64,000 bases of DNA. It comes from Streptococcus sanguinis. GTDB lineage: Bacteria > Bacillota > Bacilli > Lactobacillales > Streptococcaceae. The stretch spans positions 1,922,001 through 1,986,000 of the forward strand of contig NZ_LS483364.1 of the NCBI RefSeq assembly GCF_900475275.1. Reading direction: 5' to 3'. This document shows positions 11,179 through 25,779 of this stretch, in pieces; position 1 is the first letter of the stretch; each line of letters begins with the position of its first letter. Under the pieces are notes generated by a model that was not told the origin of the DNA, did not search any database, and worked only from the letters and a program-made list of their open reading frames with translations. The position numbers and the translations under genes are program-made.

Positions 11179-11232
11179 TTTAGAAATATTTGAGAAATTC
11201 TTTATAAATATTTGAAGGTTTGGCGCTATACT
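11179..11232 (+). promoter_or_regulatory. Operator-promoter copy A (11-bp triple repeat), ABC cassette 1
   Basis: Three head-to-tail 11-mers, TTTAGAAATAT (11179), TTGAGAAATTC (11190) and TTTATAAATAT (11201), are followed by TTGA at 11212 and, exactly 15 nt after that T, by the -10 TATACT (11227). The -35 position falls inside the third repeat, as in PhoB/OmpR-type activated promoters. The layout recurs at 13760, 15518 and 22026. Confidence 0.8.
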
Positions 11233-11286
11233 AATTAATAAGAAGAGGAGTTTTCTCTCCTAACATCATGAAAAGGAGACTTGATC

Positions 11287-12195
11287 ATGGAAAATGTTTT
11301 GGTTTTACAGCAAGTCAGCAAGAAATTCGGCCGGCAGTACGCTCTGACCGATGTGAGTCTGACGATAAAAAAAGGAGATATTTACGGTTTGATTGGCAAG
11401 AACGGGGCCGGAAAGACCACTCTGATCAAGGTCATCACCCAACTCTTGGAAGCAAGCAGTGGCAATGTCTCCCTCTTTGGCTCTCAGAACTATCAAGAAT
11501 GGACGCAGAGCCTCAAACGGGTCGGATCAGTTATCGAAACTCCGGTTGCTCACAACCACCTGACAGCCTATGAAAATCTCAGCTACTACTGCAAGCTCCG
11601 CCATATTCCCCATGCGGACAAAGTCATCCGTGAAACCTTGGAATACGTGGACTTGACGGATACCGGCAAGAAAAAATTCCGCGACTTCTCACTCGGGATG
11701 AAACAACGGCTGGGTCTGGCTATCGCGCTTCTTACCAGACCTGACCTGATGATACTAGACGAGCCTATCAATGGCCTGGATCCGGTCGGCATCAAGGAAT
11801 TCCGCCAGCTGGTGCAGCGACTAAACGAAGAGTTGGGCATGACCTTTATCATCTCCAGCCATATCCTGTCTGAACTCTACTTGGTGGGTAACCGGTTCGG
11901 CATTATCGAGGAAGGACGACTGATTCGCGAGATTTCCAAGGCGGAGTTTGAAGAACAGAGCGAAGACTATATCGTGCTTAAAACGTCGCAGTTGGAAGAA
12001 GCCAGCCGGCTGATTCACGACCAGCTCATGCATCGTATCAAGGTGGTCAATGCCTCTGACGAGATTCATATCTTTACCCATTCGCATGAGATTAGCAAGA
12101 TTGTCAAGGAACTTGCGGTCGCAGATATACCGGTGCAGGAGATTTACTATGCACGACAAAACCTAGAAAACTTCTTTACAGACTTGGTCAAATGA
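11287..12195 (+). CDS. ABC transporter ATPase 1 (BcrA/LanF type)
   Basis: ATP-binding subunit of an ABC-2 type exporter, 302 residues. Walker A GKNGAGKTTL near residue 38, signature FSLGMKQRLGLA near 132, Walker B LMILDEPINGLDP near 152, and a C-terminal extension ending ARQNLENFFTDLV that is common to the three paralogues here. The ATG at 11287 is preferred to the TTG at 11281 because AAGGAG lies 8 nt before it and it matches paralogue 2. Proteins of this type (BcrA, lantibiotic LanF) give immunity to bacitracin or lantibiotics. Followed by two permease genes; promoter copy A lies upstream. Confidence 0.9.
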   Translation: MENVLVLQQVSKKFGRQYALTDVSLTIKKGDIYGLIGKNGAGKTTLIKVITQLLEASSGNVSLFGSQNYQEWTQSLKRVGSVIETPVAHNHLTAYENLSYYCKLRHIPHADKVIRETLEYVDLTDTGKKKFRDFSLGMKQRLGLAIALLTRPDLMILDEPINGLDPVGIKEFRQLVQRLNEELGMTFIISSHILSELYLVGNRFGIIEEGRLIREISKAEFEEQSEDYIVLKTSQLEEASRLIHDQLMHRIKVVNASDEIHIFTHSHEISKIVKELAVADIPVQEIYYARQNLENFFTDLVK

Positions 12196-12211
12196 AAAAG
12201 GGAGGCTTATC

Positions 12212-12970
12212 ATGATGGATTTCATTCGAGCCGATTTATACCGGCTCATGCGCTCAAAAGGCTTTTGGATTACTGAGTTTTTATTATTCTGTGCGATTAT
12301 CTCAACAACCTTCTTCCATGCAAATATTCATTTTGGAGCAAATATCTCCAGCAATGCGGCTGCTAGTCAATCTCTAGGAAAACTAACCGGCCTTCAAGCT
12401 CTGGACTATTTTGCAGGCAATACAGACAGTCTACTCTTTTTCACCATCATTGGTCTCAGTATGGTCCTTGGAGTAGATCTGTCTCGGAAACTGTATAAAA
12501 ACTGCCTGAGCTACGGCATCTCTAAGCTCAGCTATTATTTTTCTAAGTTCTTTGTTTGTGTTAGCATCGCAGCCTTTCACTTCCTGCTGATTTTATCTAT
12601 CTCCTTTGTGACTGCTAGTCTGTCCAACGGAATTGGAAGTGCCCCCAGCTCTTTTTTGCCTCAGTTGGGAGCTGCTCTCTTCATTCAATTTCTCAGCACG
12701 GTTGCATGGATTGCCATCATTTCTTTTATACTCTATGCCAGCCACTCGATTGTATCTAGCTTTCTGACCTATTTCCTTGGCGGTACCTTACTGACTATTC
12801 CCCTCATCTTTTACCCTGACAATGAATGGCTGCTCTATCTGACCATGCGTTTTAACACAGATATGGCAGCAGATAGCGGAGCTGTTATCAAAGCTATCCT
12901 GACAGTGGTAACGGTCACCTTGCTCTTTATGGGTGGCGGGCTGATGGTTTTCAAAAAGAAAAATTTATAA
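12212..12970 (+). CDS. ABC-2 type permease 1a
   Basis: Membrane subunit of 252 residues with about six hydrophobic segments. It shares with the other three permeases of this locus an N-terminal motif (FIRADLYRLMRSKGFW) and a second motif after helix 2 (LSRKLYKNCLSYGISKLSYYFSKF), which mark them as paralogues. It starts 16 nt after ATPase 1; GGGAGG precedes two adjacent ATG codons (12212, 12215). With permease 1b it probably forms a heterodimer around ATPase 1, as in LanFEG immunity exporters. The transported compound is not known. Confidence 0.85.
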   Translation: MMDFIRADLYRLMRSKGFWITEFLLFCAIISTTFFHANIHFGANISSNAAASQSLGKLTGLQALDYFAGNTDSLLFFTIIGLSMVLGVDLSRKLYKNCLSYGISKLSYYFSKFFVCVSIAAFHFLLILSISFVTASLSNGIGSAPSSFLPQLGAALFIQFLSTVAWIAIISFILYASHSIVSSFLTYFLGGTLLTIPLIFYPDNEWLLYLTMRFNTDMAADSGAVIKAILTVVTVTLLFMGGGLMVFKKKNL

Positions 12971-13007
12971 AAAGTAGGAACAATCTTAATCATTCAGAGG
13001 AGATTTC

Positions 13008-13700
13008 ATGTTACATAGCATTCAGGCGGAGCTATACCAGCTTGTCCGCTCCAAACCTTTTTGGCTAATAGAAGGGCTGCTCTTTTTTCTCATTTTCATC
13101 AGCTCTCTTGGTGAAAGAAACTTTAATTTTTATATCTCTACATCTTCTGATCCAGAAGAAATAGTCATCCAAGGTTGGACAGGATTTGAAGCTCTCGGGG
13201 AGCTTGCTAAAGATTTCCTGCCCTTTGTCATGATTACTGTCCTTGTGCTCGTTATCTTTCTGTTAGGTCGTGACCTGACTAGAAAATTATACAACAATAT
13301 ATTAACCAGCGGGGTTTCTCGGAAAGAATTTTACTTATCCAAAATAGCTGTTCTTGTCACAATTATCATCTTTCAACTAGTAACAGCCTTTGCTGTAGTC
13401 TTTATCTTTGGAAGCCTCTTCCACGGACTTGGAACTATGCCAAAGAACTTTTTCTGGAGATTTTCCTTGTCTTTCTTTCGCTCCTTTCTCTTTATTATGA
13501 CCTGCAGTTCTGTAGTTACCTGTCTCCTCTACCTGACCCGCTCCACCCTAGCCAGCTATCTCGTCTTTTTCGCCCTGATTATGCTTCAGTCTAGCCTCGT
13601 CATCGTTTTCCCTCAGATAAATTCTGAACTATTCTTATTCCTTATTCTAGCTGGTTCTCTCTTAGGTGGTTACCAAGCCTTCCAGCACAGGGACTTATAA
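13008..13700 (+). CDS. ABC-2 type permease 1b
   Basis: Second membrane subunit of cassette 1, 230 residues, six predicted helices, with the locus motifs IQAELYQLVRSKPFW at the N-terminus and LTRKLYNNILTSGVSRKEFYLSK near residue 88. It follows permease 1a by 37 nt with AGAGGAG before the ATG. Only cassette 1 has two permeases; cassettes 2 and 3 have one each, so this gene looks like an extra copy that either pairs with 1a or came from an ancestral two-permease unit. A terminator follows at 13705. Confidence 0.85.
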   Translation: MLHSIQAELYQLVRSKPFWLIEGLLFFLIFISSLGERNFNFYISTSSDPEEIVIQGWTGFEALGELAKDFLPFVMITVLVLVIFLLGRDLTRKLYNNILTSGVSRKEFYLSKIAVLVTIIIFQLVTAFAVVFIFGSLFHGLGTMPKNFFWRFSLSFFRSFLFIMTCSSVVTCLLYLTRSTLASYLVFFALIMLQSSLVIVFPQINSELFLFLILAGSLLGGYQAFQHRDL

Positions 13701-13704
13701 ATTT

Positions 13705-13735
13705 AAGCAGTCAGCCCTTTGGCTGCTTTTTTATT
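13705..13735 (+). terminator. Terminator after ABC cassette 1
   Basis: AAGCAGTCAGCC pairs with GGCTGCTT (one bulged T) around a CTTT loop and runs into TTTTTT. It ends cassette 1 before promoter copy B. Confidence 0.75.
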
Positions 13736-13759
13736 GCTTTTGGATTGGTTCTGCATTTC

Positions 13760-13813
13760 TTTAGAAATATTTTAGAATTTCTTGAGAAATATTTGAAATC
13801 TAGCTTGTATACT
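13760..13813 (+). promoter_or_regulatory. Operator-promoter copy B (11-bp triple repeat), ABC cassette 2
   Basis: TTTAGAAATAT (13760), TTTAGAATTTC (13771) and TTGAGAAATAT (13782), then TTGA at 13793 and the -10 TATACT at 13808, again 15 nt on. It is nearly identical to copy C over the whole block. The leader of cassette 2 starts directly downstream. Confidence 0.85.
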
Positions 13814-13844
13814 AAAATCAAACCTAAGAAAGCGAGAATATACC

Positions 13845-14753
13845 ATGCAAACTGTTTTAGAAGTAAAGCAAGTTACCAAACAATATGGCCAGCAATATGC
13901 CCTTGACCATGTGAGTCTTTCAATCCAGAAGGGCGAAATTTACGGTTTAATCGGCAAGAATGGGGCTGGCAAAACCACTCTTCTCAAGACCATTAGCCGG
14001 CTCATTCATGCTAACAGCGGAACCGTGTCTGTCTTTGGTTCGCAGAACTCTAAGGAATGGAATGAAACCCTGCGCAAGATAGGAACCGTCATCGAAACAC
14101 CAGTTGCTTACAATCAAATGACTGCTTATCAAAACCTCAACTACTACTGCAAGGTCCACCAGATTGCCCAACCCGACCAACTCATCAAGGAAACCTTGGC
14201 CTATGTCGGATTGAGCAATACTGGTAAAAAGAAATTCCGCAACTTTTCGCTAGGAATGAAGCAGCGTCTAGGAATCGCTATTGCACTTATCAGTAAGCCT
14301 GAACTCATGATTTTAGACGAGCCCATCAACGGCCTAGATCCTCTTGGCATCAAGGAATTTCGACTGATGATTCAGCGACTCAATCAAGAATTGGGAATCA
14401 CTTTTATCATTTCCAGCCACATCTTGTCCGAGCTTTATCTGGTAGCCACCAAGTTTGGAGTGATTGACCAAGGACGGCTTGTCGCAGAATTCACCAAAGA
14501 CGATTTTGACCGAGCCAGCGAAGATTATATCGTCCTCAAGACTAGCGATAAAGAACAGGCTGCCAATCTCATCCAAGGCAAGCTCCACTATCAGCTCAAG
14601 GACGCTGATAAATCTGACGAACTGCACATTGTCGCCCAAGAGCAGGAACTAAATGACATCAACAGGGAGTTGGTCCTATCCAACATTCATGTCAATGGTA
14701 TCTATGCAGCTCACAAAGATTTAGAAAAATACTTTACAGATTTAGTCCAGTAA
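13845..14753 (+). CDS. ABC transporter ATPase 2 (BcrA/LanF type)
   Basis: Paralogue of ATPase 1, also 302 residues: Walker A GKNGAGKTTLLK, signature FSLGMKQRLGIA, Walker B LMILDEPINGLDPLG, a conserved SSHILSELYLVATKFG (switch His) and a C-terminus AHKDLEKYFTDLVQ. It has its own promoter (copy B) rather than being read only from cassette 1. It is followed 12 nt later by a single permease, so the complex is probably a homodimer of each subunit. By family, an exporter for cell-envelope antibiotics or a peptide; the substrate is inferred, not seen. Confidence 0.9.
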   Translation: MQTVLEVKQVTKQYGQQYALDHVSLSIQKGEIYGLIGKNGAGKTTLLKTISRLIHANSGTVSVFGSQNSKEWNETLRKIGTVIETPVAYNQMTAYQNLNYYCKVHQIAQPDQLIKETLAYVGLSNTGKKKFRNFSLGMKQRLGIAIALISKPELMILDEPINGLDPLGIKEFRLMIQRLNQELGITFIISSHILSELYLVATKFGVIDQGRLVAEFTKDDFDRASEDYIVLKTSDKEQAANLIQGKLHYQLKDADKSDELHIVAQEQELNDINRELVLSNIHVNGIYAAHKDLEKYFTDLVQ

Positions 14754-14765
14754 GGAGAAAAAACC

Positions 14766-15461
14766 ATGTTACATACTTTTCAAGCAGATTTTTACCGCTT
14801 CTTTCGTTCCAAGGCTGTTTGGATTACCGAATTCATCTTTCTACTGACGACCTTGAGCGCAGTCTTTGGCAAATTAAATGCCGTCCAGCTTATACAAGCG
14901 GTGTCCAACGCTATCGGTAATAATACATTTATCATCATTATCCTCTCTATGGTCGTCATCGGGACAGATCTGAACAAGCAGCTTTACAAGAATACTTTAA
15001 CCAGCGGCGTTTCCCGTACCAGTTTCTTCGTCTCTAAAGCCCTAGTCATGGTCTGCGTAACGTTCCTGCAGTTGGCTCTCTATTATAGCATCAACTTTAT
15101 CCTAGCAGCCATCCTAAACGGTATTGGTGATTTATCCGCCACCTTCCTGCTTCAGTTTATTCTTCTATTCTTTGTGCAGTGCCTGACTGTTATTGCTTGG
15201 ACAGCCGTTATTTCCTTTATTCTTTATCTGAGTAAATCTATGATTGCTGCTCTGGGAGGTTACCTTTTCTGCGCATCCTTAACCGGAGCTCTGGCTCAAT
15301 TTTATCCCAAATCATTATGGTTGCAGCATTTCACCATGAGCTTTGATTTTGAGACGCTTCAAAGCAACGGTGTAACCTTAAGAATTGTTCTAATCGCCTT
15401 ATTTTTAGGAACAGTCTTTACTGCAGCAAGTCTTTATACTTTCCACAAAAAGGATTTATAG
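14766..15461 (+). CDS. ABC-2 type permease 2
   Basis: Membrane subunit of cassette 2, 231 residues with about six helices. The shared motifs are FQADFYRFFRSKAVWITEF at the N-terminus and LNKQLYKNTLTSGVSRTSFFVSK near residue 70. It is closest in motif to permease 1b (LTSGVSR in both). AAGGAG precedes the ATG, and a stem-loop terminator (15467-15500) ends the unit. No accessory permease is present. Confidence 0.86.
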   Translation: MLHTFQADFYRFFRSKAVWITEFIFLLTTLSAVFGKLNAVQLIQAVSNAIGNNTFIIIILSMVVIGTDLNKQLYKNTLTSGVSRTSFFVSKALVMVCVTFLQLALYYSINFILAAILNGIGDLSATFLLQFILLFFVQCLTVIAWTAVISFILYLSKSMIAALGGYLFCASLTGALAQFYPKSLWLQHFTMSFDFETLQSNGVTLRIVLIALFLGTVFTAASLYTFHKKDL

Positions 15462-15466
15462 TAGAG

Positions 15467-15500
15467 AATGAGCTAGTCAAAAACTGGCTCATTTTAATCT
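15467..15500 (+). terminator. Terminator after ABC cassette 2
   Basis: AATGAGCTAGT pairs with ACTGGCTCATT (one G-T pair) around a CAAAA loop, followed by TTAATCTTTT. It separates cassette 2 from promoter copy C. Confidence 0.75.
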
Positions 15501-15517
15501 TTTCAATTTTAAATTTC

Positions 15518-15571
15518 TTTAGAAATATTTTAGAATTTCTTGAGAAATATTTGATAATTAGTTTGTATACT
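15518..15571 (+). promoter_or_regulatory. Operator-promoter copy C (11-bp triple repeat), ABC cassette 3
   Basis: TTTAGAAATAT (15518), TTTAGAATTTC (15529), TTGAGAAATAT (15540), then TTGA at 15551 and the -10 TATACT at 15566. All spacings equal those of copies A and B. Confidence 0.85.
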
Positions 15572-15606
15572 AAAAGTATAAACAAAGTAATTAAAGGAGA
15601 AACATC

Positions 15607-16539
15607 ATGCAAAATGTTTTAGAAGTGAAAGGACTCACTAAAAAATACGGTGATCAATATGCTCTGAAAGACGTCAGTCTTTCCATCAAGAAAGGAGAGA
15701 TCTACGGTCTCATCGGAAAAAACGGTGCTGGTAAGACCACACTGATCAAAATCATCACTCAAGTCATCTATCCTAGCGGAGGGTCCGTGTCTGTCCTGGG
15801 CTCTCAGAACCAACAAGAATGGACCAAGGCCCTCAGCCATACTGGATCTGTTATCGAGACCCCTGTAGCTCATGCCCACATGTCGGCCTATGAAAATCTG
15901 CGCTACTACTGTACCGACCGGGGCATTCCAAATGCTGACAAAGTCATCAAAGAAACCCTGCAATATGTCGGCCTGACCGATACTGGAAAGAAAAAATTCC
16001 GCAATTTCTCTCTAGGGATGAAACAGCGGTTGGGCATTGCCATTGCCATTTTGGGGCGTCCCGACTTGCTCATTCTGGACGAGCCCATCAATGGTTTAGA
16101 CCCCGTTGGGATTCAGGAATTTAGAGAAATGGTCAAGCGCCTCAATCAAGAATTAGGCATCACCATCATCATTTCCAGCCATATCCTGTCCGAGCTTTAT
16201 CTAGTCGCAACTCGCTTTGGCTTTATCAATCAAGGGCATTTCATCAAGGAGCTGTCTAAGGAAGAATTTGACCGAGAAAGCGGCGACTATATCATCCTCA
16301 AAACGGATAATATCAAGCAAGCTGCTCATTTAGTGCAAGACAAGCTAGGCTACCAGCTCAGACCAACCAACAAGGAAGATGAGCTGCATATTTCCGGCCA
16401 AGTACAAGAAATTCGCAAGATTGCCAAGGAACTAGTCCTAGCCGACATCCCAATCGGGGAAATCTACTACGCCCACAAAGACTTAGAAAAATACTTTACA
16501 GACTTAATCAACCAACAAGGAGGAAACACTCATGTTTAA
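15607..16539 (+). CDS. ABC transporter ATPase 3 (BcrA/LanF type)
   Basis: Third paralogue, 310 residues: Walker A GKNGAGKTTLIK, signature FSLGMKQRLGIA, Walker B LLILDEPINGLDPVG and a C-terminus AHKDLEKYFTDL extended by INQQGGNTHV because the gene runs 8 nt into the next permease. Translational coupling to permease 3 is therefore likely. AAAGGAG precedes the ATG. Conservation between the three ATPases is high along the whole length, so the cassettes probably arose by tandem duplication with promoter included. Confidence 0.9.
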   Translation: MQNVLEVKGLTKKYGDQYALKDVSLSIKKGEIYGLIGKNGAGKTTLIKIITQVIYPSGGSVSVLGSQNQQEWTKALSHTGSVIETPVAHAHMSAYENLRYYCTDRGIPNADKVIKETLQYVGLTDTGKKKFRNFSLGMKQRLGIAIAILGRPDLLILDEPINGLDPVGIQEFREMVKRLNQELGITIIISSHILSELYLVATRFGFINQGHFIKELSKEEFDRESGDYIILKTDNIKQAAHLVQDKLGYQLRPTNKEDELHISGQVQEIRKIAKELVLADIPIGEIYYAHKDLEKYFTDLINQQGGNTHV

Positions 16540-17254
16540 TAGTATCAAGGCGGATTACTACCGTCTCTTCCGCTCCGTAGGATTCTGGGGAGTGCAGGCT
16601 TTCTGCATCTTTGGAATTCTCCTCGGCATTTTCACTTCCAAAGTTGTCAGTTCCGACAACGGTATCTTTTTTGCCATAGATGTCGTCTCCTACAACAGCG
16701 GCATGCTCTTTATTGCCTGCAATGTCATGACTAGCTTGCTTCTCGGTGTTGATCTCAATGACAAACTTTATCACAATAACCTGACTACAGGCAAGACTCG
16801 GACCCAGTATTACTTCTCTAAATCACTGACTATCGCTAGCTTACTTCCTATGCAGTTCATACTACTCTACATTTTTGGTATTGTCATCGAATTTGTCCGA
16901 ACCGGTGGTAATATGGGAACCCTGCCAGCTAATTTCTGGGGACAATTCGCAATACTCTTTGTCATGCAGGTCATCTGTACCTATGCTTGGTACTGCATTA
17001 CCAGCTTTGTCCTCTACTTGACTCGAAACTATAGTGTCGTCTTTATCACCTATATCATGACCTACATCTTACTCGGCCTCCCTAGTCAAATGGTTGATGC
17101 CAATAATGAATGGTTCAAGGCTATCAAGATGGAGTTCGTCTACGGAGACGCTTCAATACCAGGTGTCATCATCAAAACAGCTATCTTTGCTCTCAGTCTG
17201 ATCACGGTCTTTACAATAGCAGGACTGGCTACACTGAAAAAGAGAGATTTGTAA
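16532..17254 (+). CDS. ABC-2 type permease 3
   Basis: Membrane subunit of cassette 3, 240 residues, about six helices. The motifs are IKADYYRLFRSVGFW at the N-terminus and LNDKLYHNNLTTGKTRTQYYFSK near residue 78; it departs most from the other permeases (TGKTR in place of SGVSR), so its substrate may differ. It overlaps ATPase 3 by 8 nt and ends just before a strong terminator. Confidence 0.86.
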   Translation: MFNSIKADYYRLFRSVGFWGVQAFCIFGILLGIFTSKVVSSDNGIFFAIDVVSYNSGMLFIACNVMTSLLLGVDLNDKLYHNNLTTGKTRTQYYFSKSLTIASLLPMQFILLYIFGIVIEFVRTGGNMGTLPANFWGQFAILFVMQVICTYAWYCITSFVLYLTRNYSVVFITYIMTYILLGLPSQMVDANNEWFKAIKMEFVYGDASIPGVIIKTAIFALSLITVFTIAGLATLKKRDL

Positions 17255-17257
17255 AAT

Positions 17258-17295
17258 AAAAACTCAGCTAATCACTAAATTAGCTGAGTTTTTTT
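17258..17295 (+). terminator. Terminator after ABC cassette 3
   Basis: A 12-bp perfect stem (AACTCAGCTAAT / ATTAGCTGAGTT) with a short loop is followed by a long T-run. A related stem-loop occurs at 19281-19314, and both are followed by GAGCGGATTT repeats. Confidence 0.9.
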
Positions 17296-17328
17296 GAGCG
17301 GATTTTGATTGGATTATGAGCGGATTTC
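17296..17328 (+). repeat. Short tandem 11-bp repeat (GAGCGGATTTT type), left copy
   Basis: Three 11-mers in a row: GAGCGGATTTT, GATTGGATTAT and GAGCGGATTTC. The same unit is repeated four times at 19317-19359. Together with the related terminators the two arrays bound the XRE-CPBP segment as direct repeats. Confidence 0.7.
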
Positions 17329-17364
17329 ACCCTTTCTGGTCTAGCCCTCTTTATCGGCTTTCTT

Positions 17365-17982
17365 TCACTGCTTCCAATCTTGCTTTTTCAAGAACAGACT
17401 GATGCAGACTCCTAGGATAAGGTAGAAAGTGACAAAGGTAAGACTGGCTGCCAGACTGGTCGGATATGGAAAGATCTTGCCCAGAGGAAAAAGAACATTA
17501 GATAGAAATCCGAGGGGAACAAAGAGCAAGAATAAAATCAAGGCTAGCTTAACCTGAAAAGAAGGTCTTACCTCGGATAGATTGCGGCCCATTCCCCACA
17601 CCAGCAGCCCTACTCCCTGAACGATCAGCACCGGCGTTAGCAAGATACTGATCTTGAGAAAATCAGCTAGGATAATGGAGAGGATGATGCCCAGACCGAT
17701 AAAGCCAAGAGAGAGCTGATAGCAAATATTGCTGGCTATTCTCCTGTGCTTGATTGACTGCTCTTCCTCTTTCTGTACTACAGGCTCAATTCCCTTGAGC
17801 AGATAGTCTGTGGTCACCTCAAAATAGTCACTCATGGAAATGATCTTATCCAAATCAGGCATACTCTGCTCACTCTCCCACTTGGAAACGGCCTGTCTAG
17901 ACACACCGAGTTGGTCGGCTAGCCCCTCCTGAGAAATGCCCCGCGCTTTCCGCAGGTACTGGATTCTGTCTGATAGATTCAT
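17365..17982 (-). CDS. XRE-family regulator with membrane C-terminus
   Basis: Residues 1-60 are a Cro/CI-type helix-turn-helix (RIQYLRKARGISQEGLADQL, GVSRQAVSKWE), followed by a conserved dimer stretch (MSDYFEVTTDYLLKGIEP) and then four hydrophobic segments (about 85-105, 110-128, 145-162 and 175-195). This membrane-tethered form of 205 residues is common in Firmicutes next to ABC exporters or CAAX proteases, where it senses envelope state. It lies beside a CPBP protease on the same strand, 109 nt downstream of it. Target genes are unknown. Confidence 0.85.
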   Translation of the reverse strand: MNLSDRIQYLRKARGISQEGLADQLGVSRQAVSKWESEQSMPDLDKIISMSDYFEVTTDYLLKGIEPVVQKEEEQSIKHRRIASNICYQLSLGFIGLGIILSIILADFLKISILLTPVLIVQGVGLLVWGMGRNLSEVRPSFQVKLALILFLLFVPLGFLSNVLFPLGKIFPYPTSLAASLTFVTFYLILGVCISLFLKKQDWKQ

Positions 17983-18091
17983 GGATTGTTTTACCTATTC
18001 TTTCTTATTTTTTATACTTTCTTTCATTGAAACTTATTATAGCACAAGGCGGATAGACTACAAAGTCTGATTGTCATCTCTTCATACAATG

Positions 18092-18925
18092 CTAGATTTC
18101 TTCTTTAGATGGAAGTGCTTTTTCCTCCCTATCCGTCCGATACCAGAGATAGATACTATAAAGTGTCAGGAGAATCACACCTCCAAAGTAAAAGAAGGGA
18201 TTGACTTGAGAGAAATCCAATTGATTGTTAGCTTGAGCTATGCCAACAAAAGTCGGGATAAGGGTGTTGGAGAGCGCATGAAAGATGTTACAAGCAAGAA
18301 CAGACTGGGTCTTCTTATAAAGTGCAGCAAGCCAGAAAGAGAGAAGGATACTGAAAATGATAAAAACTGAGAAAAGATCATGGCTTCGATCATAAAAGCG
18401 ATCGTAAAACCAGAGAGGAATATGCCAGATGGCCCAAATAATACCGGTCATCAAGGTAGAGACAAAGAAAGAAAACTTTTTCTCTAAGGCCGGCTGTAGG
18501 AAGCCACGCCAGCCGAATTCTTCAATCCCGCCCGATAGGACAATACAATAGATAAAAAACCAAGGAAATCTTACTAAAGCGCCGTCTACCAGCTTGCCGC
18601 CAGAAGCTAGGGCATAGAAGGTGGTCAGACCGCCACCATAGATTAGCAAGTAGAGCCAGGTCTCTTTCTTGCCTGAAAAGAGATAGGAGCAAATGGCCTT
18701 GAAGCCTTTCTTTTTCAGTACGATCAGGCTGGCCAGCATAGGCCCAAACATAGCAATACCATTTAGAATAGCTTCAAGAGCAAGATAGGCTGTAGGTGGG
18801 CTGTCTGGCCAAAGGTTTTTGAGGATAATGTCCAGCAGCCAGAATCCCCATGTCCAGCCGAAGTTCCAAGCTAGGAACGGCAAAATTAGTTTTGGTTGTG
18901 GTTTGATAGTTGTTTCTGTATTCAT
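18092..18925 (-). CDS. CPBP-family intramembrane glutamic protease
   Basis: A 277-residue membrane protein (seven or eight helices) of the CAAX protease and bacteriocin-processing (Abi/CPBP) family. All family motifs are visible: EEFGWRGFL near residue 140 (EExxxR), WHIPLWF near 175 and FHALSN near 225. In lactic acid bacteria such proteins are often bacteriocin self-immunity factors. The ATG at 18925 has AAGGAGG 7 nt upstream. It lies upstream of the XRE regulator in the segment bounded by direct repeats, and next to the ABC cassettes. Its substrate is not known. Confidence 0.88.
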   Translation of the reverse strand: MNTETTIKPQPKLILPFLAWNFGWTWGFWLLDIILKNLWPDSPPTAYLALEAILNGIAMFGPMLASLIVLKKKGFKAICSYLFSGKKETWLYLLIYGGGLTTFYALASGGKLVDGALVRFPWFFIYCIVLSGGIEEFGWRGFLQPALEKKFSFFVSTLMTGIIWAIWHIPLWFYDRFYDRSHDLFSVFIIFSILLSFWLAALYKKTQSVLACNIFHALSNTLIPTFVGIAQANNQLDFSQVNPFFYFGGVILLTLYSIYLWYRTDREEKALPSKEEI

Positions 18926-19358
18926 GAGAATACCTCCTTATAATATAATTAAACTCAAGTTTTTAATCCAAATCTTCAAAGACAGCGACTCGTTCATTCC
19001 GAAATCAAAAACTTGGCTTCTGCTTTCAGATTAACAAAAAAGCCAGTTGCCTTTCTAGCGACTGGACTTGGAATAAAGAAAAAATCTAGTTGCTTTTTGG
19101 GTGATTGAACTTGGAATCATTGTCAACTGTCAGTTGCAAGTCAGTTATATCAAGGGTTTAGAGTAGTTGGCTGATTTTTCACTTTGGCCGGAAAAATGAC
19201 CTCGTTGATATGACTTGCTTTTAAAATCACAAAACAAAAAGGCATCTTTATCATGCCTTTCTTCGACTTAATCTAAAAATAAACCTCAGCCAATTCGAAA
19301 ATTAACTGAGGTTTATGAGCGGATTTTGAGCGGATTTGAGCGGATTTTGAGCGGATTT
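18926..19358. other. Intergenic 433 bp: promoter region, inverted repeats, terminators
   Basis: No convincing ORF. It contains the CPBP promoter side (18930-18965, A/T-rich), a CCAGT...ACTGG hairpin at about 19043-19065, an imperfect direct repeat of about 35 nt (AGTTGC..., near 19045 and 19089) that ends in ACTTGGAAT twice, a spaced inverted repeat GCAAGTCA...TGACTTGC (about 19135 and 19211), and two stem-loops at 19241-19264 and 19281-19314. The former has its T-run on the minus strand and may terminate the Fic gene. Confidence 0.5.
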
Positions 19359-19359
19359 T
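19281..19359. repeat. Stem-loop plus four GAGCGGATTT units, right copy
   Basis: AACCTCAGCCAA and TTAACTGAGGTT form a hairpin like the cassette 3 terminator. It is followed by four GAGCGGATTT(T) units at 19317, 19328, 19338 and 19349. The last unit runs into the Fic stop codon. Same order and orientation as 17258-17328. Confidence 0.7.
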
Positions 19360-20339
19360 TAAGCTAACTGATAGACCCGATCCCGCGTTGTTCCACTTGT
19401 TTTCAGAAGACCGAATTCTACAAATATATTCAAATATCTACGGGTTGTAGCCTCGCTTAATCCTGTAATCTCTTGTACTTTTGCATTAGCTATTTGTGAA
19501 TGTTCCTCCAAGTAAGCTTTTATCAGCTGATAAATTTCTAACTCTCTTGGCTTTAATGTCTTGTGAAGTATCCTGTCTGCATCTTCATCTGCTTTTTCTT
19601 GGTATTCTTCTAGTGTTTCTAGTATGGCCTGCAACATAAACTCGGTAAATACTGTAGAGTCATTGGTATCATTGCTGATGGTCAAGGCATCATAATAACC
19701 CTGCTGATGAGCATAAATAACTGATTCTACTGGTAGCCATTCAAAAATTGGATTCCATTGACTGAGAATCAGACTCTGCCATAGACGTCCCATTCGCCCA
19801 TTACCATCTTCAAAAGGGTGAATAATCTCTAACTCAAAGTGAACGATACAGGACTTGACAATGGCCGAGACCTCGCTTTGCTCTGCCCATTTGAATAAAT
19901 CCTTGACCAAATTGGGGACAAACTGTGGTCTAGCCCCAACATGAACTACTCTCCCCTCGCCATCATAGACTCCAACATCCCCTAGCCGAAACTGTCCCGA
20001 CCGCTTGACTAAATCCTTAGTCAGCAAGCCATGTGCCAGGAGAAAATCATCTAGACTATAAGGGTTGAGCCTGAACACTCGCTCATAGGCTTCATAGGCA
20101 TTTTGCACCTCATGAATATCTTTTAACGGACCAAGTACACGCCTGCCTTCAATGATGTCCGTTACCTGTTCTAGTGATAAGCTATTATTCTCAATAGCAA
20201 GTGATGATTGAATAGATCGGATTCGGTTTTCCTTACGCAAATACAGCTTACGTTTTTCAATCGAAAGTTGAGTCGTCAGTTCAGAAATTCTCTGAACTAG
20301 GTTTAATATCTTCTCTGTAATACGATAATTCGGTTGCAT
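19359..20339 (-). CDS. Fic-domain protein with inhibitory helix and C-terminal winged helix
   Basis: Probable AMP-transferase (Fic) of 326 residues. The catalytic loop IHPFEDGNGRMGRLW (near 175-190) fits HPFxxGNGRxxR with the catalytic His and the anion-binding Gly-Asn-Gly. Upstream SLAIEN (residues 46-51) fits the (S/T)xxxE(G/N) inhibitory motif, so this is a class II, auto-inhibited Fic. Residues 260-326 form a winged-helix domain (NAKVQEITGLSEATTRRYLNIF). Such proteins can modify their own target or act as regulators or toxins; no separate antitoxin gene is next to it, in line with class II. The target is unknown. Confidence 0.92.
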   Translation of the reverse strand: MQPNYRITEKILNLVQRISELTTQLSIEKRKLYLRKENRIRSIQSSLAIENNSLSLEQVTDIIEGRRVLGPLKDIHEVQNAYEAYERVFRLNPYSLDDFLLAHGLLTKDLVKRSGQFRLGDVGVYDGEGRVVHVGARPQFVPNLVKDLFKWAEQSEVSAIVKSCIVHFELEIIHPFEDGNGRMGRLWQSLILSQWNPIFEWLPVESVIYAHQQGYYDALTISNDTNDSTVFTEFMLQAILETLEEYQEKADEDADRILHKTLKPRELEIYQLIKAYLEEHSQIANAKVQEITGLSEATTRRYLNIFVEFGLLKTSGTTRDRVYQLA

Positions 20340-20383
20340 TTTACTCCTTTAAAAAAACATTTTCCCTTATCATACACTATCCT

Positions 20384-21259
20384 CTACAAAGTCACAACCA
20401 GTTCAAACCAGTCGTCCTCGGCTTTCATTGTCAAGTCCCCGCCTAGGATTTCGACTAACTGCTGAGTGATGTAGAGCCCTAGCCCTGAAGACTCCTCACT
20501 GCTGGATAGATTTTCTGAGTAAAAGCGATTAGTCAGCTTATCCAGATATTGGATAGGCTGCTGGACGATATTTTTGACGGTAAAGATACAATGCTCGCCC
20601 TCTTTTTTCAGAGAAATGCTGGCGGCCTTACGGCCGTGCTTGAGGACATTGCTTATCATATTTTGGACAATGCGCTCTAAAATTTCTGGGTCTGTCTCTA
20701 GCTCGAGACCTTCAGCTAACTCTACCTGCAGGTCAATCTGGGCTTTCTGAAAAGCATCATAATAAGTAAAAAGCTGCTGGGTTACTAGCTGGGATATATC
20801 TGTCGGCTGGACATTGGCCCGTATAGCTCCCTCCATCAGCCGGCGGTACTCCATCAAGGCTTCCAGCCGTTTGGACACCATTCCCAGACTATCTGCAATT
20901 TTGATTAGCTGCTGACTTTCCTGACTATCATCCTTCAGCAGCTGCTGCGTATAGCCACTGGCAATGGTCAGAGGGGTGCGGATATCATGGGCGATATTAC
21001 TGATAGCCATATCCAGCGTCTTTTTTTCCTGCTGGACTACAAAGGTCGTCTTGTCTAGCTCCCCAAAGAGTAGCTCTGCTTCCTCTGTCAGCTCCAAAAT
21101 ACTGGGGGCATGAGCAGCAGGAGCCAGACGATTCTGGCTCCCTGTCTGCCGCTTCCGACGAATCTGCTGAGCCACATCCTTGACCGCCAAATGATAGCGT
21201 ATTAAACCAATGGCCAGAAACAGACTGATAAGGGCAAATAAAATGACTAACACCAACAT
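20384..21259 (-). CDS. Sensor histidine kinase
   Basis: A 291-residue kinase with one N-terminal hydrophobic stretch (about 2-20) and almost no extracellular part, so it likely senses within the membrane or through a partner such as an ABC exporter. The H box AISNIAHDIRTPLT holds the phospho-His; the N box NMISNVLKHG and G box SSGLGLYITQQLVE complete the ATP site. The ATG at 21259 lies 1 nt after the response-regulator stop with AAGGAGG 6 nt before it; the longer frame from 21283 has no site. It is cotranscribed with the response regulator and lies 0.7 kb from promoter copy D. Confidence 0.92.
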   Translation of the reverse strand: MLVLVILFALISLFLAIGLIRYHLAVKDVAQQIRRKRQTGSQNRLAPAAHAPSILELTEEAELLFGELDKTTFVVQQEKKTLDMAISNIAHDIRTPLTIASGYTQQLLKDDSQESQQLIKIADSLGMVSKRLEALMEYRRLMEGAIRANVQPTDISQLVTQQLFTYYDAFQKAQIDLQVELAEGLELETDPEILERIVQNMISNVLKHGRKAASISLKKEGEHCIFTVKNIVQQPIQYLDKLTNRFYSENLSSSEESSGLGLYITQQLVEILGGDLTMKAEDDWFELVVTL

Positions 21260-21260
21260 A

Positions 21261-21941
21261 TCAGTCCTCCTTGAGCCGGACACCTAGTCCCCAAACAGTC
21301 TCTATGTATTCCTCTGTTGGATCCAACTGAGCCAGTTTCTTACGTAGATTGCTGAGGTGAGTATTCAGGGTATTATCCCCAGGCAGATAGCTCTCTTCCC
21401 AGACCTGCTCAAAGAGCTCTTCCTTAGTGTAGATCTTCTTGGGATGACGGAGCAAGAGCTGGAGGATATGATATTCTTTCTTGCTCAAACGGACGCTTTT
21501 CTCACCGCAGACCGCCTCAAAGGTAGCCTTGAGCAGACGGATATTTTTAAAGGACTGGCCTTCTTCATCGCCAGTCAAAGCCTGCTGGCTGCGCAGCTGC
21601 ACGGTGATACGGGCAAAAACTTCATCCAGATTGAAGGGTTTGACGATATAATCATTAGCACCATTCAGCAGGTACTGGCTAACCAGCGCTTTCTCCCCAA
21701 GAGCCGTCAGCATAACCACTGGCACCGTAGCATTGCTGCTGCGAATTTCCTTCAACACTTCATCGCCATTCTTACCCGGCAGCATGATGTCCAGAAGGAC
21801 CAAATCAATCTCCTCCCGCTCAAACAGCGAAATGCCCTCTGTCCCCGAATAGGCGGAATAAACCGTGTGTTCCTTCTGAAAAAGATCTTTTAGAATTTCA
21901 TGAATATCACTGTTGTCTTCGATGAGTAAAATATGAGCCAT
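21261..21941 (-). CDS. OmpR/PhoB-family response regulator
   Basis: A 226-residue regulator: receiver domain (residues 1-115) with phospho-Asp in LVLLDIMLPG, the conserved Thr in MLTALG and Lys in YIVKPF; C-terminal winged helix (130-226) with LSKKEYHILQLLLRHPKKIYTKEELFEQVW and LRKKL. MAHILLIED at 21941 follows GGAGG by 9 nt and is the standard start. OmpR-type regulators bind head-to-tail repeats about one helical turn (10-11 bp) apart, which is just the architecture found at four promoters in this locus, one of them 85 nt upstream of this gene. That it binds them is inference. Confidence 0.93.
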   Translation of the reverse strand: MAHILLIEDNSDIHEILKDLFQKEHTVYSAYSGTEGISLFEREEIDLVLLDIMLPGKNGDEVLKEIRSSNATVPVVMLTALGEKALVSQYLLNGANDYIVKPFNLDEVFARITVQLRSQQALTGDEEGQSFKNIRLLKATFEAVCGEKSVRLSKKEYHILQLLLRHPKKIYTKEELFEQVWEESYLPGDNTLNTHLSNLRKKLAQLDPTEEYIETVWGLGVRLKED

Positions 21942-22025
21942 AAACACTCGCCTCCAGAAATTTCCTATCACTAGTGTAGCAAGGATAAGAGGCTAAGTCA
22001 ATAAAAGATGGACTATTCGAAAAAC

Positions 22026-22079
22026 TTTAGAAATATTTTAGAATTACTTGAAGGATATTTGAGAATTGAACTTTAAAAT
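22026..22079 (+). promoter_or_regulatory. Operator-promoter copy D (11-bp triple repeat), serine hydrolase operon
   Basis: TTTAGAAATAT (22026), TTTAGAATTAC (22037), TTGAAGGATAT (22048), TTGA at 22059 and a -10 TAAAAT at 22074, with spacings equal to copies A-C. It lies in the divergent region between the two-component genes and the hydrolase genes, so it may also autoregulate the former. Confidence 0.82.
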
Positions 22080-22123: not shown

Positions 22124-22183
22124 ATGTTTAAAATTTTTTGCAAAATCGTTTTTAGAAGTATTACTTTCGCCCTTGAGGGCTAA
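22124..22183 (+). CDS. Putative 19-residue peptide in the leader of the serine hydrolase operon
   Basis: MFKIFCKIVFRSITFALEG, with AAAAAGGAGACTC 4-5 nt before its ATG. The same ribosome-site sequence recurs before the hydrolase start (22188-22198), so the ORF is bracketed by two copies. The peptide is hydrophobic with lysine and arginine at intervals and one Cys, which would suit an amphipathic membrane-active, signalling or leader peptide. It lies 45 nt after the -10 of copy D, so it is the first reading frame of that transcript. No family is recognised. Confidence 0.45.
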   Translation: MFKIFCKIVFRSITFALEG

Positions 22184-22201: not shown

Positions 22202-23983
22202 ATGAAGAAATCATTTATTCTAACGCTTCTAACGATTATAACTCTGGGGCTCTTCCAGCCAGCTACTGCGCTGGCTGAGGTGGCTCAAAAGCTACCATCT
22301 GGTATAGAACGGGACCAGATCGGCCAAAAAATCCAAGACTATGTCAAGGAACATGAAAAAACAACAGCCGGCATGGCAACGGCAGTCTTTGACAAGGACG
22401 GTACCATTTATCAAGGCAACTTTGGATACATGGATAAGGAAAAAGACATCAAGGCCGATGATGATAGCGTCTTTGAATGGGGCTCTGTAACCAAGCTGAC
22501 CGTCTGGCTCTCTGTTATGCAGCTCTGGGAGCAAGGTAAGATTAGCCTAGAAGAAGACATTCGCACCTATCTGCCAGAGGGCTTCCTCAAAAATCTCCGC
22601 TATGACAAACCTATCACCATGCTGGATCTCATGAATCATCAGGCAGGATTTGACGAGACTACCTTCTACATGCGAAGTGACAAAAGTATCGAAGAAATCC
22701 TTAAAGAACAACAACCTATCCAGTCTTTTGAACCCGGTACAGTCACAGCTTATTCAAATTACGGTGCCGGCTTAGCTGCTCTGATTGTCGAGCGGATCTC
22801 CGGTCAGACCTTTGCCAACTATGCCCATGAGCATATTTTCCAACCACTGGGCATGGATAAAACGGCTATTTTGCCGGACCTATCAGACAATTCCTACGTT
22901 CAGAAAAAGCGTCAAGAAACCAAGGGTTACGACACTAAAGGAAACTTGCTGAGCAAGGACCATTTCATCACTAGCATCTATCCTACCGGAGCGGCTACTG
23001 GCACCTTTAAAGACTTGGAGAAGTTCGCCCAAGCCCTGCTGGCTCGCAAAACGCTCTTTGAGCGCCCAGAGACTTGGAACACCCTCTATACTGTCAGTTC
23101 CACCTACCCTGACACGGATATCATCCGCAATGCTCACGGTTTCTGGGCCAACGAATACGGTACTACTGTGTTGGGCCACGGCGGAAATACAGCTGGCTCT
23201 ACTTCACGGATAATATTGGACTTGGAGCACGGTATCGGCTATGTCGTCATGACCAATCAAGGTACAGAGCAAAATTATAATTTCCAAATGCCAGAGCTCG
23301 TCTTTGGGCCACGTAAAACAGCCAGCAAGGAAACCCAAGAGCAATTCAGTCCTGGCTATTATCGCACTCTGCGCAACTTTAATCAAGGCCCTCTAGCTAT
23401 CTTTAAAATGATTCCAGCCTCCGCAGACTACTTGCAGGAACCATCTGACGATCAGCGATTGCCAAACAACTTCTGGACCATTTATCAGAGCCAAGGCAAG
23501 ACCCATATCGCAGTAGCTGTTGCAGACTATGAGAAAGTCTCTGACTTTGATTTCTTTAAAGACTATGTTGTTCTAGGCTTGGCCGGACTTGGTATCATCT
23601 ACGCCCTCGGCCTGCTCCTCATCAGCCCTCTTCTAGGAGTCTATCGGCTTATCTTTCGCAAGAAACAAGACCAGCCAGACCGCACTTGGAAGGTCTGGAA
23701 CCTTCTAACAGCTGTTGGTATTTTGGCTGTCCCAATCAATCTCTTTCTGCTATTCATGTCAGCAACTTCGGGAGATTTCAGCGAAATCGCTCAGTGGCGC
23801 TACATGCTCTTTGCTGCCTTGGGACGCCTGCTAACCGTATCCGCTCTGTTACCTCTCTTCAGAAAGTTCAGAGAAAAGCTCAGTAAAGGACGCCGCTTCC
23901 TAACAGCCGTGACCAGCCTATCTGCTTTAGCAGTGGCCGCTAATATCCTCTATTGGTCCCTCTATCAGTGGTGGGTATTCTAA
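22202..23983 (+). CDS. Membrane-anchored beta-lactamase-family serine hydrolase 1
   Basis: A 593-residue protein with a signal peptide (residues 1-25, cleavage near ALAEV), an extracellular class C beta-lactamase/PBP-like domain (about 30-390) and four C-terminal membrane helices (about 455-480, 498-522, 528-550 and 565-590). The catalytic motifs are complete: SVTK (SxxK), YSN (YxN) and HGG in place of KTG. Relatives are D-aminopeptidases, esterases or PBP-like proteins (FmtA, EstB). AAAGGAG precedes the ATG. It is the first large gene after promoter copy D and has a tandem paralogue downstream. A role in envelope modification or hydrolysis of an antibiotic is inferred. Confidence 0.88.
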   Translation: MKKSFILTLLTIITLGLFQPATALAEVAQKLPSGIERDQIGQKIQDYVKEHEKTTAGMATAVFDKDGTIYQGNFGYMDKEKDIKADDDSVFEWGSVTKLTVWLSVMQLWEQGKISLEEDIRTYLPEGFLKNLRYDKPITMLDLMNHQAGFDETTFYMRSDKSIEEILKEQQPIQSFEPGTVTAYSNYGAGLAALIVERISGQTFANYAHEHIFQPLGMDKTAILPDLSDNSYVQKKRQETKGYDTKGNLLSKDHFITSIYPTGAATGTFKDLEKFAQALLARKTLFERPETWNTLYTVSSTYPDTDIIRNAHGFWANEYGTTVLGHGGNTAGSTSRIILDLEHGIGYVVMTNQGTEQNYNFQMPELVFGPRKTASKETQEQFSPGYYRTLRNFNQGPLAIFKMIPASADYLQEPSDDQRLPNNFWTIYQSQGKTHIAVAVADYEKVSDFDFFKDYVVLGLAGLGIIYALGLLLISPLLGVYRLIFRKKQDQPDRTWKVWNLLTAVGILAVPINLFLLFMSATSGDFSEIAQWRYMLFAALGRLLTVSALLPLFRKFREKLSKGRRFLTAVTSLSALAVAANILYWSLYQWWVF

Positions 23984-24000: not shown

Positions 24001-25779
24001 ATGAAAAAAACATTTCCCCTAATCCTTTTAACTCTGTTGACTATAGGACTCTTTCGACCAATTACCGCACTGGCTGAAGAACAGAAACTCCCATCTGGTA
24101 TCGAACGGAACCAGATCGGCCAGAAAATCGAAGACTATGTCAAGGAGCATGAAAAGACGACTGCCGCTATGGAAACAGCAGTCTTTGACAAGGATAGCAC
24201 CATTTACCAAGGCAACTTCGGTTATATGGATAAAGAAAAAGGCATCAAAGCTGACAACAGCAGCGTCTTTGATTGGGGCTCTGTGACCAAGCTAACCGTC
24301 TGGATAGCTGTCATGCAACTCTGGGAACAAGGAAAGATTGACCTAGAGGAAGATATCAAGACCTACCTGCCAGAGAATTTTCTTAAAAATCTGCACTTCG
24401 ACAAAGCTATCACGATGCTGGATCTCATGAATCATCAGACAGGATTTGATGAATCTCTGTCTTACACAAAAGGTGATAAAAATATAGAGGAAAATCTACG
24501 CATGCTCCAGCCTGTCCAGTCCTTTGAACCTGGAACAGTAACCTCTTATTCCAACTATGGTGCTGGGCTCGCTTCTCTGATTGTCGAGCGGATTTCCGGC
24601 CAGACCTTTGCTGACTATACCCACGAGCATATCTTCCAGCCGCTTGGTATGGACAAGACAGCTCTCCTACCGGACTTATCTGATAATCCCTATGTTCAGA
24701 AAAAACGGCAAGAATCTAAGGCCTATGATACAAAGGGAAATTCACTAGGGACAGCTTTTTATGAATATGGTCTCTACTCAATTGGCCAAGCAGCCGGTAC
24801 CTTGGAGGATTTACAGAAATTTGCTCAGGCTCTGCTGGGGCGCAAGACTCTCTTTGACCGTCCAGAAACTTGGAATACTCTCTACAATCCCACTTCGACC
24901 TATCCAGGTACAGACATCGCCCGCAATGCCCACGGTTTCTGGATTAATGAATACGGAGTCAGCATCATTGGCCACGGCGGCAATACTGATGGTTTCAGCT
25001 CCCGGCTTATGCTAGACTTGGAAAGTGGCATCGGCTACATAGTCATGACCAATCAAAGCATGGAAGAGAATTACAACTACCAAATGCCTGAACTGGTTTT
25101 CGGAAAACGTAAAACAGCTGACGAAGATACCCAAAAGCAGTTTACACCAGGCTACTACCGTTCTCCGCGCACCTATCTCCATGGTCCCTTATCCTTTCTT
25201 AGACTCATGATGCCCTCAATAGAGAAGATTGACAATCCTGCTCAGAACCGAATCTTGAGTACCAATTTTTGGACCATCTATAAGAGCAAGGGAAAGATTA
25301 CAATTCCCGTCGCTGTGGTAGACTATGAGAAAATCTCTGCTTTTGACTTCTATAAGGACTATATCATCTTAGGATTAGGCATCCTTGGAATTGTCTACAG
25401 TTTTGGAACGCTCATCATCAGCCTTTTATTAGGAGCTTATCGCTTGATTTCCCGAAAAACGGTTGAGCACTCAGACCGCACTTGGAAGGTCTGGAATCTA
25501 CTGACTTCTCTTGGTATTCTGGCTGTTCTCCTAAACCTACTAATGATTATGATACCTTTGATGTCAGATGACCTAGATTCTCTAGCTCCCTGGCGCTACA
25601 TGCTCTTTGCTGCCTTGGGACTCCTGCTAACCACTGCTGCTCTGCTGCCGCTCTTCAGAAAATCCAGAGAAAAGTTCAGCAAAGGTCGCCTCTTCCTGAC
25701 GGCAATGACCAGTCTATCTGCTTTGGCAGTGGTCGCTAACATCCTTTACTGGTCTCTTTACCAGTGGTGGGTGCTTTGA
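24001..25779 (+). CDS. Membrane-anchored beta-lactamase-family serine hydrolase 2
   Basis: Tandem paralogue of the previous gene (592 residues) with the same design: signal peptide ending near LAEEQ, SVTK, YSN and HGG motifs, and four C-terminal helices ending LYWSLYQWWVL. Similarity runs from end to end (both contain LPSGIER, KTTA, SYTKG/MRSDKS variations), so a recent duplication is likely. It starts 17 nt after the first with AAAGGAG. Keeping two copies with different loops suggests different substrates or dosage. No inactivating changes were noticed. Confidence 0.87.
   Translation: MKKTFPLILLTLLTIGLFRPITALAEEQKLPSGIERNQIGQKIEDYVKEHEKTTAAMETAVFDKDSTIYQGNFGYMDKEKGIKADNSSVFDWGSVTKLTVWIAVMQLWEQGKIDLEEDIKTYLPENFLKNLHFDKAITMLDLMNHQTGFDESLSYTKGDKNIEENLRMLQPVQSFEPGTVTSYSNYGAGLASLIVERISGQTFADYTHEHIFQPLGMDKTALLPDLSDNPYVQKKRQESKAYDTKGNSLGTAFYEYGLYSIGQAAGTLEDLQKFAQALLGRKTLFDRPETWNTLYNPTSTYPGTDIARNAHGFWINEYGVSIIGHGGNTDGFSSRLMLDLESGIGYIVMTNQSMEENYNYQMPELVFGKRKTADEDTQKQFTPGYYRSPRTYLHGPLSFLRLMMPSIEKIDNPAQNRILSTNFWTIYKSKGKITIPVAVVDYEKISAFDFYKDYIILGLGILGIVYSFGTLIISLLLGAYRLISRKTVEHSDRTWKVWNLLTSLGILAVLLNLLMIMIPLMSDDLDSLAPWRYMLFAALGLLLTTAALLPLFRKSREKFSKGRLFLTAMTSLSALAVVANILYWSLYQWWVL

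Follow-up and report, generated by a model that had tools for sequence, protein, structure and literature searches.

A four-half-site operator in fixed phase with the -10 in Streptococcus sanguinis, probably the promoter element of the BfrAB two-component regulon

The 64,000-nucleotide stretch of the Streptococcus sanguinis genome analyzed here (contig NZ_LS483364.1, positions 1,922,001 to 1,986,000; hereafter the window) carries a promoter element in four copies, which start at positions 11179, 13760, 15518 and 22026 when the window is read directly. We consider it very probable that these elements are promoters of the BfrAB two-component regulon of this species; the system was taken as BfrAB because the species, the types of target and the reported motif agree. 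The sites, their geometry, the composition of the promoters and their co-inheritance with a response regulator were established by computation. The four operators of the window are:

11179 to 11215, + strand: operator copy 1, -10 TATACT at 11227-11232, profile E 1.1e-11 (G000:C1:1933179)
13760 to 13796, + strand: operator copy 2, -10 TATACT at 13808-13813, profile E 9.3e-14
15518 to 15554, + strand: operator copy 3, -10 TATACT at 15566-15571, profile E 1.5e-12
22026 to 22062, + strand: operator copy 4, -10 TAAAAT at 22074-22079, profile E 2.6e-11

These coordinates confirm those given in the original prediction, a note made from the letters of the window. In all four copies TTKA-headed repeats succeed one another at an exact 11-bp pitch and end in TTGA, and the first base of the -10 hexamer lies 15 nt past the start of this final TTGA; pitch and offset, both predicted, are exact in 4/4. 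The predicted series of three 11-bp repeats held for the pitch and for repeat 1, which is exact in every copy, and gave way in the other two: repeat 2 takes the form TTKAGAAWTWC, repeat 3 is variable, and TTKAGAAATAT is never present as an exact triple in any of the four. Written as 11-mers, copy 1 is TTTAGAAATAT TTGAGAAATTC TTTATAAATAT TTGA, copies 2 and 3, whose operators are identical, are TTTAGAAATAT TTTAGAATTTC TTGAGAAATAT TTGA, and copy 4 is TTTAGAAATAT TTTAGAATTAC TTGAAGGATAT TTGA, the third 11-mer being in each the variable repeat 3. What stays constant is a set of four TTKA heads 11 bp apart, and we therefore prefer four tandem half-sites to three repeats plus TTGA as a description of the element. 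Twenty operators align without gaps at this direct-repeat pitch.

A scan of the whole genome had been proposed along with the original prediction. The idealised 11-mer triple, with up to 3 mismatches, matched copies 1 to 3 (100 shuffles gave 0 matches) and was dropped as a search pattern because it missed copy 4; a looser pattern and a profile were used instead. The 3-mismatch pattern yielded a further copy at G000:C1:757389 (0 and 0 matches in the reversed-pattern controls), and the looser pattern another near 2091807 on the minus strand, with 12 and 2 real matches against 1 forward and 0 reverse in the reversed-pattern control. The profile is sequence-only and was built over 54 positions, -10 included, from the 20 operators. 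It scored 150 of 2979 first-look candidates in the own genome and returned six strong operators (E 9.3e-14 to 5.6e-10), followed by a gap down to E=0.0275; as all six belong to its training set, the informative part is the gap below them and the lack of further strong matches. The fifth operator (757389) stands upstream of a peptidase M13 (pepO-like) gene with an in-phase TATACT and the sixth (2091807) upstream of a CPBP/Rce1-like (CPBP/CAAX) protease gene with an in-phase TATAAT. The original set of four promoters, serving ABC exporter cassettes and a serine-hydrolase operon, was thus recovered whole and proved incomplete. Eight own-genome matches lie at E 0.0275-0.70, and none of the five inspected (817493, L104, L106, L107 and L108) has four in-register half-sites. 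The last four were rejected as operators on this ground; three of them overlap with long open frames or with the ends of such frames, and L108 lies between genes.

The composition of the six promoters points to activation. At 17-bp spacing from the -10, copies 1 to 4 show ATAAAT, AGAAAT, AGAAAT and AAGGAT, which are unlike TTGACA, and none of the six strong operators has a TTGACA-like hexamer there (ATAAAT, AGAAAT or AAGGAT in 6/6). The best -35-like hexamer (TTTATA, TTGAGA or TTGAAG) falls in 6/6 at a spacing of 20 bp, too long for sigma-70, and the TGn directly before the -10 is absent in all six. A -10-like hexamer xAxxxT lies in the same 15-nt phase in 31/31 distinct sequences, found by a search that fixed half-site letters and left the -10 letters free. 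Half-sites three and four span the -35 region, and the start codons of the three cassettes are placed 37, 41 and 60 nt past the first base of the -10. Since no usable -35 is present, as had been predicted, a BfrA-type regulator would activate these promoters, and the layout is that of a class II activator of the OmpR/PhoB family. One further promoter beside copy 4 is separate from it and of the ordinary type:

21973 to 22001, - strand: promoter of the regulator gene, sigma-70-like TTGACT-N17-TACACT

Under the mechanism that we infer, a histidine kinase (BfrB) would phosphorylate the response regulator encoded at 21261-21941 (BfrA), which would then bind the four head-to-tail TTKA-headed half-sites, one helical turn (11 bp) apart, probably in the form of two dimers in tandem. 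The final half-site (TTGA) would lie over the -35 region at its fixed distance from the -10, so that bound BfrA could replace the missing -35 and recruit RNA polymerase. The reverse, in which BfrA is a repressor whose binding blocks polymerase until a signal relieves the block, has in its favor that repressors also bind over the -35 region, where the last two half-sites lie. We regard it as unlikely, because promoters with neither a -35 at 17 bp nor a TGn before the -10 would have little basal activity to repress, and because the constant phase of the -10 is typical of activators.

The original assignment of the 11-bp sites to an OmpR/PhoB-type regulator was borne out by the direct repeats and by the Trans_reg_C domain of the adjacent regulator. 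PhoB pho boxes and OmpR sites are tandem half-sites at 11-bp pitch that lie over the -35 at a fixed distance from the -10 and serve class II activation. The present operators share that arrangement and differ in half-site sequence and in having four half-sites conserved as a block. RR08 and SaeR, which we take to be OmpR-type regulators as here, also use direct repeats at 11-bp pitch, with a different half-site and different targets. Their sites are given as [GTTAA]-N6-[GTTAA] in PMC11034029.

As to the identity of the system, the abstract of Zhang et al. 2009 (Microbiology 155:165) reportedly gives the BfrA motif as TTTCTTTAGAAATATTTTAGAATT. This reported consensus is exact at window positions 13756 and 15514 and, as a 21-base core, at the pepO and CPBP sites; copies 1 and 4 have no exact full match to it. 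The resemblance to the BfrAB regulon covers the species, an OmpR-type regulator with its kinase, and ABC cassettes and a CPBP gene as bfrCD- and CAAX-type targets, the targets being matched by type. In a secondary account, which cites Zhang et al. 2009, BfrABss of S. sanguinis controls the bfrCD-homologous operons bfrCDss and bfrXYss, as well as bfrH1ss and bfrH2ss, genes of CAAX family proteins (PMC5462765). The S. gordonii BfrAB system promotes biofilm development, according to PMC7700319. The regulon, put forward in the original prediction as undescribed, therefore matches one already known. Compared with what is available of the secondary account, our operators show two more half-sites and a -10 in fixed phase, and the target set has a third cassette, the serine-hydrolase operon and the pepO-like gene in addition to those it lists (PMC5462765). 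As far as the literature searched shows, what is added here is the geometry, the sites at the serine-hydrolase and pepO genes, and the distribution; the four-half-site/-10 geometry, these two sites and a small-RNA-like target described below were not found in the open-licence literature searched.

The two-component genes lie beside operator copy 4:

20384 to 21283, - strand: histidine kinase, BfrB candidate, Pfam HisKA and HATPase_c
21261 to 21941, - strand: OmpR/PhoB-type response regulator, BfrA candidate, Response_reg PF00072 7.3e-26 and Trans_reg_C PF00486 5.6e-23

Three named S. sanguinis strains have regulators 99% identical to this one. By eye, the kinase shows a single hydrophobic stretch at the N terminus and nothing that looks like an extracellular domain. 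Among 118 Streptococcus genomes (operator E<=1.1e-7, regulator E<=1e-60, kinase E<=1e-40), a strong operator was found in 58, the regulator in 57 and the kinase in the identical 57. All 57 regulator-bearing genomes have a strong operator, against 1 of the 61 lacking the regulator, and because of this co-occurrence the regulator at 21261-21941, already proposed on account of its position, is the likely owner of the operators. In a sample of 295 genomes of the order, for which, as in the larger scans generally, few candidates were scored per genome and filters were stricter, the operator (E<=1e-5) occurs in 32, all of them (32/32) among the 38 genomes that bear the regulator. Among the best 80 named loci by regulator match, three of which are S. 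sanguinis, the operator is present in 37 of the 38 with a regulator at least 61% identical (the one without it, L029, stops 990 bases past the regulator); the 42 with a regulator at most 47% identical gave one weak match (19.4 bits) with neither repeats nor -10. In a hand-picked subset of regulators, LPGDN[TSA]LN[TA][HQ]LSNLR[KR]K occupies the recognition helix in 15/15 operator-linked proteins versus 0/11 others. Six loci from outside S. sanguinis were mapped (L020, L062, L024, L054, L050 and L053), and in these the operator stands before an ATPase-permease gene pair of ABC type that converges on the regulator-kinase pair, an arrangement that extends to Enterococcus (L050) and Oceanobacillus (L053).

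The co-occurrence counts argue against the possibility that another response regulator or a global factor binds the element and that the neighboring two-component system is an accidental passenger, and so does the arrangement shared by the Enterococcus and Oceanobacillus loci. This explanation, which we hold to be very unlikely, draws on genome G009, where regulator and kinase are not matched at the thresholds used and three strong operators are kept. G009 is sanguinis-like, and its best kinase matches are only 23-24% identical. At its locus (L144, G009:C6:50000-60000) the region of the regulatory system is missing between cassette 1 and a beta-glucosidase gene, as are cassettes 2 and 3 and the serine hydrolases; the operators retained are those of cassette 1, the pepO-like gene and the CPBP gene. 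A permease of cassette 1 and the hydrolase gene upstream of this cassette each match in two frames and are thus frameshifted. Such damage fits a promoter gone silent, though one genome proves little.

G009 is one of several points that weigh against the BfrAB reading. Thirteen further genomes lacking the regulator have weak operator matches (best E 6e-4 to 0.01) that were left uncounted. Under the stricter filters of the order sample, 6 of the 38 regulator-bearing genomes have no operator at E<=1e-5; all six lie outside Streptococcus, and their regulators are 45-56% identical. The co-inheritance counts ignore relatedness, and there is overlap between the samples of genus and order. For the pepO-like gene, control by the operator is uncertain, since a sigma-70-like promoter of its own (TTGACG-N17-TAAAGT) follows the operator -10 at about 165 bp. 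No S. gordonii orthologue of the regulator appears by name among the matches listed, and the identification with BfrAss draws on a secondary source and the reported motif.

Some observations concern the same genes. We do not claim a small RNA from the pepO leader, whose fold is no better than that of shuffles (z -0.94; 35/200 shuffles as good). Eight of the 57 kinase matches (G003, G007, G019, G028, G056, G082, G100 and G104) contain one in-frame stop, which may come from the alignment running upstream of the true start codon. The regulator-kinase-ABC cassette arrangement is also present in L062, which is labelled S. pneumoniae; PMC11034029 lists 13 pneumococcal two-component systems.

The genes of the window that follow the operators are:

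11287 to 12195, + strand: ABC exporter ATPase of cassette 1 (bfrC-like), Pfam ABC_tran 1.2e-31
12212 to 12970, + strand: permease 1a, ABC2_membrane_4, 30.3 bits (cut-off 27)
13008 to 13700, + strand: permease 1b, ABC2_membrane_4, 41.1 bits (cut-off 27)
13845 to 14753, + strand: ABC ATPase of cassette 2, best NCBIfam model the lantibiotic-protection ATPase TIGR03740, 238.7 bits, below the cut-off of 309.75
14766 to 15461, + strand: permease of cassette 2, ABC2_membrane_4, 26.1 bits, just below the 27-bit cut-off
15607 to 16539, + strand: ABC ATPase of cassette 3, Pfam ABC_tran 3.5e-31
16532 to 17254, + strand: probable permease of cassette 3, no Pfam match, 29.6% identity across 186 aa with the L144 homologue of permease 1a
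22202 to 23983, + strand: serine hydrolase 1, PF00144, beta-lactamase-fold family
24001 to 25779, + strand: serine hydrolase 2, PF00144
25796 to 26461, + strand: HXXEE-family membrane protein, last gene of the presumed operon, PF13787, 31.9 bits (cut-off 25)

The predicted targets in the own genome would be the three LanFEG-like ABC exporter cassettes, the serine-hydrolase operon with its HXXEE protein and the CPBP protease gene, and possibly also the pepO-like peptidase gene; their common theme appears to be the handling of peptides or of the envelope. The likeness to LanFEG lies in the NCBIfam model that the cassette 2 ATPase matches best and in permeases 1a and 1b, which pass ABC2_membrane_4; that ATPase, the one of the three compared with NCBIfam, fails the family cut-off (238.7 versus 309.75 bits). 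The three ATPases are paralogous (about 61-67% identical to one another's S. sanguinis copies) and the operators of copies 2 and 3 are identical, as would be the case if the element were a promoter spread by cassette duplication and devoid of regulatory meaning. This we find extremely improbable, because the element also precedes unrelated genes with unrelated flanks (serine hydrolases, pepO-like and CPBP protease genes) and because relatives retain the half-sites but show drift in the spacer between TTGA and -10 (some half-site letters were fixed in one search). The genus scan gave 29 further loci (L112-L140), of which 27 match ABC cassettes and one the pepO-like gene (L137); the short contig L120 has no match to the compared protein set. 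Other S. sanguinis-like genomes have the operator about 460 nt before a second CPBP gene (G105), before another serine-hydrolase locus (G046, G047) and before a fourth ATPase gene (L019 and G047, probably one genome).

The window has a second CPBP/Rce1-like protease gene of its own at 18092-18925, between the cassettes and the kinase and near XRE-type regulator and Fic-family genes; the operator scans gave no match before it. The leader of the serine-hydrolase operon contains a 19-codon open reading frame at 22124-22183 (MFKIFCKIVFRSITFALEG) with a Shine-Dalgarno-like sequence of its own. This frame, a possible leader peptide, is unchanged in L018 and L023 and carries one substitution in L019 and L167.

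A different kind of site was found in five genomes (G008, G017, G027, G040 and G102), where a complete operator with an in-phase TAAAAT is placed about 180 bp past the 3' end of a convergent glutathione-reductase-like gene, presumably gor. On the operator strand, no open frame of at least 95 codons follows at these sites in the five genomes. The gene on the other side, which we take to be cyclase-like, was seen in L009 and L146 only. The region L158 243-400 and the matching stretches of L159-L162 have 97% mean column identity in alignment; that of L158, the sole sequence tested, folds better than 200/200 shuffles (z -4.61) with a strong hairpin, and Rfam returned no match for this transcript. 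The locus could be a BfrA-driven small RNA. All five genomes appear to lie near S. cristatus, and the G102 regulator is identical to a S. cristatus protein. The own-genome site G000:C1:817493 (L009, about 1501-1526) is without the first half-site and without an in-phase -10; after comparison with relatives the idea of a chance match was set aside, and the site suggests a decayed remnant of the gor-side operator.

A broader proposition, on which our judgment is evenly balanced, is that the four half-sites of the BfrAB operator form a rigid promoter module that has been inherited together with the regulator throughout Streptococcus and into other Lactobacillales. It would recruit a varying set of envelope and peptide-handling genes (exporters, serine hydrolases, PepO-like and CPBP proteases) and, in relatives near S. 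cristatus, a structured small RNA beside gor, and membership of the regulon could then be read from sequence alone. Most of what is found here rediscovers, from raw sequence, a regulon whose core was published in 2009. With its exact geometry the regulon can be computed for any genome, the close co-inheritance indicates which regulator owns the site, and serine hydrolases, a pepO-like gene and a small-RNA-like locus are added as candidate targets. The likely output of the system would be defence against extracellular peptides or their processing, and a role in peptide defence, if true, would provide a testable signal for a system linked to biofilm formation.

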